From the NCBI GenBank assembly GCA_017512625.1, contig JAFWFB010000055.1, forward strand, positions 1 to 6,836: a stretch of 6,836 bases of DNA. Direction: 5' to 3'. The position numbers and the translations under genes were made by a program. This document shows, piece by piece, positions 1,432 to 6,836 of this stretch. The stretch's first letter is position 1; every line of letters begins with the position of its first letter. Origin of the DNA: Erysipelotrichaceae bacterium. GTDB lineage: Bacteria; Bacillota_I; Bacilli_A; Erysipelotrichales; Erysipelotrichaceae. The notes under the pieces are model-generated. The model had not been told where the DNA came from. It worked only from the letters and a program-made list of their open reading frames with translations, and ran no database searches.

Positions 1432-3951
1432 ATGAAACAGCGGATCCTGGTAATCGATAATATCAATGGCAGCCGTCTGCTTAAGACTTTGGGTATCAAT
1501 GGTGTAAATACCATTGGACTTAGGGTGATGAGTGGATTGCAACTGGCGCAATATTGCTTGGAAACAAGCGACTTTGAAAGTGAAAAGACCTTTATCTCTT
1601 CCAAGGAAGCGACAGCTCTTATCTATTCCTTTTTAAAGGATATCCCTTACTTTACTAACGCATCCTATACCGATGCTAAGAATCTGGTGAACTCGCTTAA
1701 TTCCTTAAGGATGCTTATTACCGATGATGAAGAGTCAAAGATACATCATCAGTTTATAGAACAGGCGGAATTCAAGGAAAAGAATGAAGCGATCGTAGCA
1801 GTCTATGACCGCTATATTGAATATTTAAAGACAAATGAACTGAGCGATAATGTCTCTTTTTTACGCAAGGCGATCGCTGGTGGTGAAAAGATAGATGCTG
1901 AGTTTTATGAACTTTCCGGTTATAAGCTTAACCCACTCGAAAAAGCCCTGGTTGAATCCATTGGCGGCAGGCTTAAGACGATAAGCAGCGCTTCCCTTTT
2001 TGAAAGAAAAGGTGAAGAGATCAGGATAGAAGACTATCAGCGCTATTATGGTGCCTCCAATGAGATCGACTATGTCCTGGGCGACATCTTAAGCCGTAAC
2101 CTTAACCTGGATGAATGTCAGCTGGTATTGGCTGATAGCAGTTACGTAGATCTTTTGATGGAATATGACATTGCTTTAAATACGGATCAGGGAAGATCAT
2201 TAAGATCCTTTAATGCCTATAAGGTACTGGATCTGTTTTACCGCTGGAGTGAAAGATCATTTAACAGCCACGATGCTTTACTGGAGATCATCGAAAGCGA
2301 AGCCTTTGACCGCAATAAACTGATGGAAAAGATCTCGGGTGGCGATCCGGATAGGTTTAAGAAGGTCTTGGATCTTGCGGGAAACATGCGTCTTGGCTTT
2401 GACACGGAGGAAAATAGGAAGAAGCTAAGAGGCGCTGAAAGGATCATCGTTTCCGATAACCGCAACAATGTCTTTAATGACCTGGTGCTTTTAAGCGATG
2501 AGCTTTGTAAAGGGTACCGTTATCTGGTAAACGAATATACGCTGATCGAAGAAGATGATATAGAAGAGCAAAGTGCCTTGATGGCCATCGATCAGGAACT
2601 GGAGATCTTTAGCCGCTACAATCATGATGATAAGGCTTTGATCGAAAGGATGGGTGGCATCGGTCTAAGGATCGATAGCGGTAATAACAGCCTTTTAGTC
2701 AATACCATCGATAAGGCCATTGGCAGTCTTAGAAAACATATCTATGTAATGGGCCTGTCTGCTGATAATTTCCCGGGTAAACCGGTAGAGAATTATCTGC
2801 TTCTGGATAACGATTACCGTCTTTTCGAAGATGAAGATAAGCTTCCTAATTCGATCGAGGTGATCGAGCAAAAGAAACAAAGACTTATCGATTTCCTTAG
2901 CTGTGCATCCCTGTCTGGAAGCACTATCCATCTTTCCTATTCCCATTTTGATCTGGCCCAGGTCAAGGAAGCCAACCCTTCCTCGATCCTATTCGAACTG
3001 TATCAGAAGCAGTATCCTAAAGGTTCGTATGGTGACTTTGAAAAGATGCTTGAAGAAAGCCATATCGGTTATTTTGAAAACCGTAATGACTTAAAAGCTT
3101 TGCTGGTAAAAAGATACAGTGAAGACTATCAGATCACCAATGACTTTAAAGTAAATAAACAGGAACCGTTGATCAAAGAGAATACTTTCTCTCCTTCAGC
3201 GATCGAAGATTACCTGATCTGCCCTAGACTTTTCTATCTGGCCAGGATCTTAGGCATTCCGGAACTGGAGAAAGATGACCCGTTAGTCATCATCAATCCG
3301 ATCGACTATGGTATCCTTACCCATTCCTTAATGGAATCTTTAGCAAAGAAAGACTATACAAAGCAGTCATTCATAAAACTTTGTACTGATGCCTTTGATG
3401 ATTATCTGAGATTGCGTCCTCCGGTCAGCGAACATATCTCCCAAGCGGAAAGGGACAGCTTTATCCGGATGATGGAAAATGCCTATGACAGCGACTATGG
3501 AAGAAAAGTCATCGATGCTGAGGGTGGCAACATGAATGATCCGATCGATACCGGAAGAGGCATCAGAGTAAGGGGCATTCCTGACCGTGTAGAACAGGAG
3601 ATCGATGGCAGGATCATCATTGCGGACTACAAGACCGGAAAAAGGATCGTTCATCGCCGTGATGACTTTGAGTCCTGTATCCAGACAATTATCTACTGCT
3701 TCATCGAAGAGAAGCTGTTGAAGAAAAAGGTCTCCGGTTCCGTTTACCGCTATCTACGCTTCCCTGCCAGCGTCGTTTGTGAATACAACGAGCAGATGAG
3801 AGGCGATCTCAATAAACTATATGGAGATATAGCCGATAGCATTAAAGAAAATAATTTCCCATTGACCGATAAGAATAAGGCCAGCTGTCAATATTGTCAG
3901 TATCTGTTTGTCTGTGGCCGTTACGCGAAGGAGGAAGAAGATGATCAGTAA
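1432..3951 (+). CDS. addB: AddB-like PD-(D/E)XK nuclease subunit of a helicase-nuclease
   Basis: This 839-residue protein is the nuclease/Chi-scanning type of subunit that partners an AddA/RecB-like motor to resect double-strand breaks and load RecA. An inactive helicase-like core includes GLSADNFPG (441-449) and LSYSHF (501-506). The C-terminal domain starts at FSPSAIEDYLICPRLF (586-601). The nuclease residues are visible as H631 (ILTH), D718 (GIPD), D732-Y733-K734 and Q751...Y755. C597 plus C819, C822 and C828 (CX2CX5C) match the four cysteines that hold the 4Fe-4S staple in AddB. The N-terminus (RILVIDNINGSRLL) lacks the P-loop found in Bacillus subtilis AddB, and the protein is shorter than that enzyme's roughly 1,160 residues. 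In both respects it is closer to RexB or to compact relatives annotated only as PD-(D/E)XK nucleases. ATG 1432 has no ribosome binding site. The 3' end overlaps the next start by 11 bases, which implies translational coupling with addA. Confidence 0.88.
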   Translation: MKQRILVIDNINGSRLLKTLGINGVNTIGLRVMSGLQLAQYCLETSDFESEKTFISSKEATALIYSFLKDIPYFTNASYTDAKNLVNSLNSLRMLITDDEESKIHHQFIEQAEFKEKNEAIVAVYDRYIEYLKTNELSDNVSFLRKAIAGGEKIDAEFYELSGYKLNPLEKALVESIGGRLKTISSASLFERKGEEIRIEDYQRYYGASNEIDYVLGDILSRNLNLDECQLVLADSSYVDLLMEYDIALNTDQGRSLRSFNAYKVLDLFYRWSERSFNSHDALLEIIESEAFDRNKLMEKISGGDPDRFKKVLDLAGNMRLGFDTEENRKKLRGAERIIVSDNRNNVFNDLVLLSDELCKGYRYLVNEYTLIEEDDIEEQSALMAIDQELEIFSRYNHDDKALIERMGGIGLRIDSGNNSLLVNTIDKAIGSLRKHIYVMGLSADNFPGKPVENYLLLDNDYRLFEDEDKLPNSIEVIEQKKQRLIDFLSCASLSGSTIHLSYSHFDLAQVKEANPSSILFELYQKQYPKGSYGDFEKMLEESHIGYFENRNDLKALLVKRYSEDYQITNDFKVNKQEPLIKENTFSPSAIEDYLICPRLFYLARILGIPELEKDDPLVIINPIDYGILTHSLMESLAKKDYTKQSFIKLCTDAFDDYLRLRPPVSEHISQAERDSFIRMMENAYDSDYGRKVIDAEGGNMNDPIDTGRGIRVRGIPDRVEQEIDGRIIIADYKTGKRIVHRRDDFESCIQTIIYCFIEEKLLKKKVSGSVYRYLRFPASVVCEYNEQMRGDLNKLYGDIADSIKENNFPLTDKNKASCQYCQYLFVCGRYAKEEEDDQ
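3928..3934 (+). promoter_or_regulatory. Ribosome binding site of addA inside the end of addB
   Basis: AAGGAGG lies six bases before the ATG at 3941 and within the last codons of addB. It decides the addA start in favour of 3941, giving an 11-base overlap with addB (stop TAA 3949-3951). The alternative ATG at 3951 is in another frame and meets TAG after two codons. Confidence 0.88.
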
Positions 3952-6836
3952 TGATGTAGAAGCCAGAAAAGCCATCGTCGAAAAGACCGATCATAACTTC
4001 TTCGTAGAAGCGGGAGCCGGTTCAGGAAGACGACGATGCTGGTAAGAAGGATGGTAGCCATGGTCGAGGATGGCATCGATATCTCCAAGATCTGTGCCAT
4101 CACCTTTACCAAGGCGGCTGCCAATGAATTCTATTTGCGCTTTCAAAGGATGCTTTATCAAAGAGCTAATGATTTTTCCAAGGAAGAACCAAAAGCAGGT
4201 GAACTGGGTATAGCCAACGATCTTACCCGTAGCCGTTGCCTTAAAGCTTTAAATGACATCGATCTCTGTTTCATGGGAACCATCGATTCCTTCTGCAACA
4301 TGGTCTTAAGTGAACATCCGGCCAGTGCCGGAATACCTTTTGACTCCAAGGTGGTCGATGAGCAAGAGATCAATGATATCTATCGCAATGAATACCGCCG
4401 GATCCTGATCGGCGAGTATGGGGAGCAGTTAAGAGAAAAGGCTGTAGCCTATAATAACTGTCTGCGTCATCCGGACCAGATGTTTGTGGAAGAGATCGGA
4501 AGGATCATCTCTTTGGTGCGCACCAACCTGGTAAGGGAAGAGCACAAGGATATCTTTAATGATCAGGAATTCAAATACCGTCAGGAAAGCTTCCTTCAGA
4601 TGGTCGACACCCTGGTCGCCAATGAAGAATCGCTTAAAAAAGGTGATAAGGAATCCCAAAAGGCGGCTGATAACCTGATCGGCTTTAAGAGATCGTTCCA
4701 CGATACCAAACACTGGCCGGAAAGGATCTCTGAGCTGATCAGAGCGCTTAATGATATTAAAAAAGTCCGTTTATATACCGATGATCCGAAAAGTATCGGT
4801 ATCGATCATTCCGGTTTCTTTGAATTGAAGGGAAGCCGACCGGTTTACTACGCCTTAAACATCGAAGATCCATATTATCCTTTAAACGATCTTAAGAATT
4901 ATCAGTATGACATCTGTCTGGATTTTCTGACTGATGCGGCCAAGGCGATCAGTGAGCATTTAAAAAGCGAAGGTCTTTTAACCTTTGATGACTATCTTTA
5001 CTATCTAAGGGATACCTTAAGGGAAGATGCCCAAAAGGGTGGCAGACTGATCAGACATATCAGGGAACGCCATTCCTACTTCCTGATCGATGAGTTCCAG
5101 GATACCAACCCGATCCAGGCTGAGATCTTCTTCTATCTAAGCCAGATAAAGCCGGAAAAGGACTGGAGCAAGGGTGATCTTAGGGATGGCTCACTGTTTA
5201 TCGTCGGCGACCCAAAACAGTCGATCTACCGATTCAGGAATGCAGATATCAAGTCCTTTAACAATGTCAAAAGACTGTTTGACGGTGATAAGCGGGAAGT
5301 ATTGTATCTGACGCAAAACTTCCGTTCGAAAGACTATCTTAAGCAGTGGTTCAATGACAGCTTTATCCCGATGTTTAGCAATGAAACCAACATCGATAAA
5401 TGTGAATACCTGACCATACCTTACAAACAGGAAGAGATCAAGAATGATCAAAGCGTCTATCAGTACAGCATTTCCGAATTTAAACAGGACCCGGAAGCTG
5501 TTTCCAATATCATTCAGAAGATGATCGATGAAAAGGTGATGATCGATACCCGTAATGGCCTTAGACCTTGTTCCTACAAGGACTTTATGGTCATCACCTA
5601 CCGCAAGAGTAAACTGAATGACTATATCGATGCCTTTGTCCGTCACCGGATCCCGGTCAAGGTCGAAGGCAAGGTCAATTTCTCCCAGTGTGAGATCCTG
5701 ACCACTACGATCAAGGTTTTCCTTGCCCTGGTCTTCTATGATGAGATCTATGCCTATGATGCTTTAAGATCGAAAGCTTTCAACCTAAGTGAGAAGCAGA
5801 TCTACGATCTTAAAAAGAGCACCAAGACCCTTAGGGTTACAAGCGATATCAAGATAGCTGATTACAGTCCGGTAAGACTGTTTGAAAAGATCACTGATGA
5901 ATACAAGATCATGGAGATCTGTAACAGCGATAATCTGGAATACTACTACTATGCTTTGGAACTTTTAAGAAAAGCCCAAAGCGATGGTACGGTCGTTAAC
6001 TTAAGGGATGCGGGAAGATTCTTGTTGGATATCTTGCAAGGCCGAAGCTCAGAGGAAAGAAGCGCCTCCTTCAAGCAGGATGAGGATGTCGTCCATCTCG
6101 CAAACCTGCATAAGGTAAAGGGTCTGGAAAGACCGATCGTCATCCTGGCGACCTCCACCAATCAGAAAGGAAGTCAGGGTGACCGTTACAGAGTTGAATA
6201 CGAGATAGATGGTGTAAACAGTTATGCCATGAAGATCGGTGAGATCGAGACCAATAACTATGGTGAGCAGGATGAAGATGAACTACGCTCTTCTGAGTGC
6301 GAAAGACAAAGGCTTCTATATGTTGCTGCTACCAGGGCAGCGCAATATCTGCTTATCGGTGTCAAGCTGAATAAAGGCGATGTCATTGCTAAACAAAATG
6401 CCTGGAATGACTTGGTAAACAATGTCAGCTACTACGATATCAGCCGTAAGACTGTCGAAAACAAGGAAAAAGAAATCATTGATATCAAACAGCTGATAAG
6501 TCAGGCCAAGGAACGGGATTTCAGCAAGCTATCAGGAAGGCAATCCTATGAGATAGCTACCCCAAGCCGGATCTCTACCCCGGGAAAAATCGAAGATGAA
6601 GTCGAAGAAGCCTATAGCATCACCAGGGAAAGAGCTTTGGTCATGGGTACCATGGCCCATAAGCTGATGGAGATCCTGGTAAGATCCAAAAATGATATCG
6701 ATCTTAATAAGGCTGTTATTAGGACAAGCAATGAATATGCTGATGGAATGTATCGAGAAGACTTATTAAAGCTGGGTAACAGTATCCGAAGCGGAGGCTT
6801 CAGGCAGGAGAATGAATGTCCTAAGGACATCCTAAA
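3941..6836 (+). pseudogene. addA: AddA/RecB-like helicase-nuclease, frameshifted in Walker A; 3' end outside window
   Basis: This is the ATP-driven 3'-5' UvrD-family motor and second nuclease of the AddAB complex. As written, the frame opened at 3941 stops at 4043-4045 after 34 codons. Restoring one A near 4027-4029 joins it to an open frame of over 930 codons reaching the right edge. In repaired numbering the motifs are GAGSGKTT (25-32), TFTKAAANE (55-63), TIDSF (114-118), Walker B IDEFQDTN (383-390), GDPKQSIYRFR (423-433), NFRS (460-463), LHKVKGLE (723-730) and RLLYVAATRA (791-800). GTMAH (903-907) opens the nuclease domain, whose D...DYK motif lies past the edge. The N-terminus has DVEARKAI where UvrD-like helicases carry the Q motif, recalling RecB-like proteins with a DxxAR start. 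No other stop or shift is seen, so the damage is either recent or a base-call error. ATG 4036 could restart translation, but only of a protein without a P-loop. Confidence 0.88.
4025..4038 (+). other. Single-base deletion site in the addA P-loop
   Basis: The sequence reads GGAAGACGACGATG. With one extra A it would encode Gly-Lys-Thr-Thr-Met, completing GAGSGKTTM. As it stands it encodes Gly-Arg-Arg-Arg and meets a stop three codons later. The expected homopolymer is only three A's (AAA read as AA). The in-frame ATG at 4036-4038 sits seven bases before the stub's stop codon, with an AGGA at 4024-4027, so termination-reinitiation is conceivable. Confidence 0.85.

Follow-up and report, generated by a model that had tools for sequence, protein, structure and literature searches.

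A one-base frame break at the Walker A lysine of the AddA-like gene in a divergent AddAB-like pair

This locus raises the question of whether a helicase gene whose reading frame is lost at the Walker A lysine has really been inactivated, has been misassembled or is recoded, and of what its loss would cost the cell. The window, meaning the whole stretch of DNA that was analyzed, appears to be a complete metagenome contig of 6836 bases, and the AddA-like gene in question runs off its right edge (Table 1). The frame break is a real feature of the contig sequence. Very probably it is a single-base loss in a divergent AddAB-type motor gene that entered the record either as an assembly error or as a very young null allele.

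Table 1 Features of the window, with contig positions and, for motifs, residues of the downstream frame
Feature	Position	Strand	Basis or remark
Glutamate-synthase small-subunit-type gene (gltA-type)	1-885	minus	Partial; ORFs and family profile matches
Serine tRNA	970-1059
FakA-like middle domain, stand-alone	1065-1316	minus	PF21645 match
AddB-like gene, 839 aa	1432-3951	+	ORF, PF12705, motif patterns, fold matches
Truncated 5' ORF of AddA-like helicase gene	3941..4045	+	34 codons and TAA
Frame-loss site	4024..4035	+	Codons of Walker A lysine region; one base short versus relatives
Rest of AddA-like gene, -1 frame	4036..6834	+	933 codons, open to contig end, motifs Ia to VI
Walker B / motif II DEFQDT	5089..5106	+	Intact; residue 352 of downstream frame
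TFTKAA	residue 23
GDPKQSIY	residue 391
LTQNFRS	residue 425
HKVKGLE	residue 692
LLYVAATRA	residue 760

Frame break and state of the remaining gene

The ATG at 3941 of the AddA-like ORF overlaps the end of the AddB-like gene (stop at 3949-3951), and relatives of the AddA-like gene start within about 8 codons of this position. The ancestral frame is kept for residues 1-29 (MISND...FVEAGAGSG), up to GAGSG of the Walker A motif, after which five out-of-frame codons lead to a TAA at 4043-4045 and a 34-residue product. A frame lost at the Walker A lysine and a protein truncated to this length had been described in an earlier note, and both can be read directly from the sequence, which is one base short compared with relatives.

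The -1 frame was followed from 4036 to 6834, at the contig edge, and contained zero stops. Six motif patterns were sought in this frame by pattern search and all were present in order (motifs Ia to VI), in agreement with the earlier statement that the helicase motifs are intact downstream. Codon usage of the 933-codon frame correlated with that of the upstream AddB-like gene at r=0.93, versus 0.04 and 0.20 for the other two frames. The expected C-terminal nuclease domain of the AddA-like protein lies beyond the contig end. Given that the contig edge precedes this domain, intactness is demonstrated for about 960 of about 1100 codons, and the earlier description of an otherwise perfect gene applies to that portion.

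By simple arithmetic, a random lesion in a gene of ~3.3 kb would hit the five codons GSGKT in roughly 0.5% of cases, a figure that concerns one event singled out after the fact for its location. With no further disabling change in 2799 bases, a neutral pseudogene could have diverged by no more than about 1 to 1.6%, if the indel rates assumed here hold.

Homologues were examined at the same site. The 120 best of 6285 matches were listed, one of them from the window itself; the GKT lysine was kept in all 119 others, of which 118 match GxGxGKT and one, P0101, reads SAGSGKT. The earlier note had also proposed that the codon be compared in other strains; the Walker A codons were intact in the DNA of 14/14 relative genomes. 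A search with the 200 residues downstream of the site returned 110 fragments, the best of which by E-value showed 57% identity over 79% of the query, and the highest identity was 72% over 51% of the query. No sister copy of the site was seen among these fragments. GKT was present in 103 (102 by pattern, P0178 by eye), and the other seven begin downstream of it, as expected of contig-end fragments. The intact remainder of the gene and the retention of the lysine in relatives together indicate that one base was lost from a gene that was whole until recently, or still is.

A genome scan with the window's own protein gave no match. A scan with an alignment was evaluated for 80 of 561 loci, of which only L001 and L002 were taken as clear orthologues. 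The window's 933-residue frame (P0001) represents a cluster of 5 member sequences, with the representative alone visible. Upstream of the pair, the FakA-like domain is 83 aa long, matches PF21645 over nearly its full length without a kinase domain, and is separated from the AddB-like gene by only 115 bases.

Identity of the gene and its partner

The gene, named addA in the earlier note, is a divergent AddA-like helicase with a short, P-loop-less AddB-like partner and is not canonical addA. The AddA-like frame, which is truncated in the window, scored 137.7 bits against addA_Gpos (TIGR02785; cut-off 707.65), and the intact relatives P0002 and P0030 also fell below the cut-off, at 216.2 and 206.5 bits; this cut-off is strict, as canonical-type AddA passes it in 0/145 genomes of the Holdemania family. 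In a tree from which the broken copy of genome G144 was left out, a branch of 3.8 with support 100/100 separated the AddA-like clade from four AddA rows used as outgroup, which were labeled by the analyst and of which only the G706 and G700 rows were matched to TIGR02785. Under a broad definition of AddAB-type systems, a functional Walker A in the AddA subunit was present in 14/14 relatives and absent from the window.

Among the closest known systems is AddAB of Bacillus subtilis. Its AddA (3u44_A) was the best solved-structure match of the AddA-like family profile (E 1.3e-42), has the same UvrD-type SF1A motifs in the same order, and likewise is encoded directly after an AddB-like gene. Relatives of the AddA-like protein also carry a C-terminal PD-(D/E)XK domain, PF12705 being listed for P0002-P0120 among the best 120 of 6285 matches, and measure 1034-1166 aa versus 1232 in B. 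subtilis AddA.

The AddB-like protein comprises a helicase-like N-terminal part, a C-terminal PD-(D/E)XK nuclease and a Cys cluster, recognized from PF12705, CxxCx5C and fold matches to B. subtilis AddB (3u44_B, 4ceh_B). Compared with that protein it is short (839 versus 1166 aa) and has no P-loop; its identity to AddB rows was 13-15%, and by sequence alone the resemblance was weak (3u44_B, E 0.0051). That this neighbor has no P-loop had been stated before and was borne out by pattern search, which found none in 16 AddB-like proteins (the window and P0121-P0135). The AddB-like gene lies directly upstream of the AddA-like UvrD gene in the window and in 14/14 relative loci, in some of which it is cut by a contig edge. 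In two relatives, small regulator-like genes were seen by eye in translated ORFs just upstream of the pair (L132:1496-2863 and L135:12475-13161) and look zinc-finger/antitoxin-like or HTH-like.

Other helicase systems share some features with the pair. The best NCBIfam score of the AddA-like frame was to RecB (TIGR00609, 1w36) at 188.5 bits, far from the cut-off of 696, and RecC chains were among the fold matches of the partner; unlike in RecBCD, the neighbor of the helicase gene in the window is AddB-like. Similarity to Gabija GajB and other UvrD-family defense helicases was generic (best 66 bits) and is expected of any SF1A helicase, and the partner, unlike that in Gabija, matched Cas4-type nuclease models and no Gabija partner.

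Membership in a defense system was rejected, as PADLOC and PHROGs gave generic UvrD, Cas4-like and exonuclease similarity only. A viral origin was likewise rejected, with no relative among 85 pattern matches; the broken-site sequence had no exact match in viral contigs, by a pattern that is blind to intact copies. Plasmid searches matched 410 records, all at <60% identity and none covering 80% of the query. No description of this pair was found in the literature on AddAB, as represented mostly by titles and abstracts.

More distant AddA-like proteins, with about 28-43% identity in matched stretches, were seen in G613 (C26:5325-8504), G025, G086 and G010, and may be further relatives of the clade or other AddA types.

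Distribution of the pair and of canonical-type AddA

Pair frequencies were determined at E <= 1e-100. The pair was patchy, occurring in 4/148 genomes of the family of a Lachnospiraceae-labeled genome and in 4/150 of the family of an unclassified Bacillota genome; both counts take in the seed genome that led to the respective family. Weaker matches were not counted as pair-bearers (G025 1.1e-45, G086 1.6e-36, G010 1.7e-34), and a class-wide search with P0002, limited to two candidates per genome and not used for counts, added G613 (2.0e-86, 30% identity). Canonical-type AddA was also held by all eight pair-bearers of these two families, in seven of them over the cut-off; in G238 it takes the form of two partial frames, on separate contigs, that both stay below the cut-off. 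In these two families the divergent pair looks like a second machine.

The Holdemania-containing family, whose label rests on one locus (L026 in G681), gave a different picture. Strong pair matches (E <= 1e-142) were found in 6/145 genomes and canonical-type AddA (E <= 1e-50) in 130/145, "canonical-type" here meaning about 216-552 bits for the best stretch, with at most four candidates scored per genome. The pair survey and the AddA survey were taken as covering the same 145 genomes, since the 28 listed handles were all shared. Canonical-type AddA was present in only one of the six pair-bearers (G908, as partial frames) versus 129 of the 139 others (Fisher p = 3.4e-5, a value that ignores shared ancestry and genome completeness). 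In the tree, two of these pair-bearers group as close sisters and are therefore not independent. The result was unchanged when every candidate in the six was scored (E <= 1e-20). Ten of the 139 genomes without the pair also had no canonical-type match, two of these having no candidate at all. Matches in G735 and G757 (E about 1e-21) overlap their own canonical-type AddA and were not counted as pairs. In this family the pair may have replaced canonical AddAB and may be the only AddAB-type machine.

More interesting than the lesion is a by-product of the survey: the pair and canonical-type AddA occur together in two families and nearly exclude each other in a third. On this pattern, the displacement of a core repair complex by a divergent relative can be tested. 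Tentatively, a divergent pair with a short, P-loop-less AddB could be spreading in gut Bacillota, repeatedly displacing canonical AddAB in the Holdemania family and being kept beside it elsewhere, and the window would then catch its loss in one lineage through a lesion at its sole recognizable ATP-binding site.

The gltA-type fragment hints, weakly, at a host in the Holdemania order. Its best matches (55-56%) were in two genomes of that order, and matches at E <= 1e-85 occurred in 6/244 genomes there; two other orders, sampled with 247 and 246 genomes, gave none. Neither of the two best genomes is among the pair-bearers, and most Holdemania-order genomes do not match.

Another broken copy was found in G144, where the AddA-like gene carries an in-frame TGA (L131:9181-9183) just after GDPKQSIYRF and the genome also holds canonical AddA over the cut-off. 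The idea that this TGA removes a conserved arginine following YRF was rejected, as 14 other sequences have R, N, K or S at that position. Near the pair in the same genome, a P-loop ATPase-like stretch (L131:17135-17994) is also broken, by a stop immediately in front of VGKT and by a change of frame further on.

Origin of the lesion and its consequences

As written, the contig would yield a 34-residue peptide and no functional motor, since an SF1A ATPase deprived of its Walker A lysine should be inactive and the partner itself lacks a P-loop. Very probably one base has dropped out of the gene for the motor subunit in a divergent helicase-nuclease pair of AddAB type, and the break is neither designed nor recoded. 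The sequences show the lesion and its position, the intact remainder, the whole copies in relatives and the gene family; the loss of function, the age of the lesion and the division between error and mutation are what we infer from them. Because the rest of the gene is intact, either a consensus error or a very recent real null allele would account for the break, and the absence of decay there upholds the earlier suggestion of a sequencing error or a very recent mutation.

An assembly consensus error has about an even chance. It would leave one isolated lesion in an otherwise undecayed gene, as seen here on a short contig, and assembly errors are reported as a documented cause of apparent pseudogenes (PMC11017572). 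However, the run of A at the site is very short, so this is no classic homopolymer site; no other frame break occurs across roughly 6.5 kb of coding sequence; and the simulated error rate given in the same report is low for a contig of such size (PMC11017572).

The probability of a real, very young null allele falls somewhat short of one half. The undecayed state of the rest of the gene counts against it. With 5 members in the cluster of the 933-residue frame, the same break could be present in sister contigs. P0121, an AddB-like protein from another contig and the nearest known relative of the partner, is 96% identical to that of the window, without gaps and with 36/839 residues different; a real lesion therefore probably arose after that split.

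If the allele is real, its cost depends on whether the cell holds a second machine. That the broken gene belongs to an accessory AddAB-like pair, whose recent loss the cell tolerates because it also has canonical AddAB, is a possible but doubtful reading. Since canonical-type AddA stands alongside the pair in all eight pair-bearers of two families, loss could be silent there; the patchy occurrence of the pair and the state of G144, which keeps canonical AddA beside its interrupted AddA-like copy, also argue for it. Against this, the host may belong to the Holdemania order, where the sampled pair-bearers mostly have no canonical-type AddA, and the stop in G144 could itself be an assembly error.

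It is unlikely, though not negligibly so, that the lesion is a real null allele of the cell's sole AddAB-type machine, which would make the cell repair-defective and more transformable. The five of six pair-bearers without canonical-type AddA in the Holdemania-containing family, set against 129 of 139 other genomes with one, and the best gltA-type matches of the window in the Holdemania order are consistent with it. The assignment of the host is weak, and the intactness of the remainder fits an error just as well. Selection should also act against a cell that loses its sole machine for double-strand-break resection. In Thermus, addAB loss is reported to have appeared spontaneously in ppol mutants and to bring damage sensitivity and much higher transformation (PMC9751324). 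Wolbachia strains are reported with a premature stop in addA that takes away its nuclease domain (PMC4224334).

A repair defect in the window's cell, which the earlier note had thought probable, is accordingly possible: it could hold in the Holdemania-containing family and might not appear in the two families where canonical-type AddA accompanies the pair. A gene that looks like addA is here something other than canonical addA, and one broken "addA" is no safe sign of repair deficiency. The lesion by itself, one unverified base on one contig, has little weight and is ordinary; most likely it is either a mistake in the sequence or a private null allele of recent origin, in a member of a divergent AddAB-like pair.

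Recoding and other causes jointly are very improbable. For recoding in particular, whether by ribosomal or transcriptional frameshifting that restores the protein or by re-initiation at ATG 4036, the chance is slim. No slippery heptamer (X XXY YYZ) occurs in any phase of the 105-base ORF at 3941-4045, which contains two AAAA runs, neither at the break site, and no other run of that length or longer, and the RNA of 4020-4110 is hardly more stable than shuffled sequence (z -0.90), so that a programmed -1 frameshift gene was rejected for want of heptamer and stimulator. No break at the same place was seen in the 14 relatives read as DNA. Some re-initiation is conceivable, as the stop at 4043-4045 follows closely on ATG 4036, which has AGGAAG six bases upstream. 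The Shine-Dalgarno score of this ATG is ordinary for an internal start (-4.3 kcal/mol versus -12.2 at the true start), since 6 of the 31 other internal in-frame ATGs score as well or better, and a product begun there would keep the rest of the protein without Walker A.
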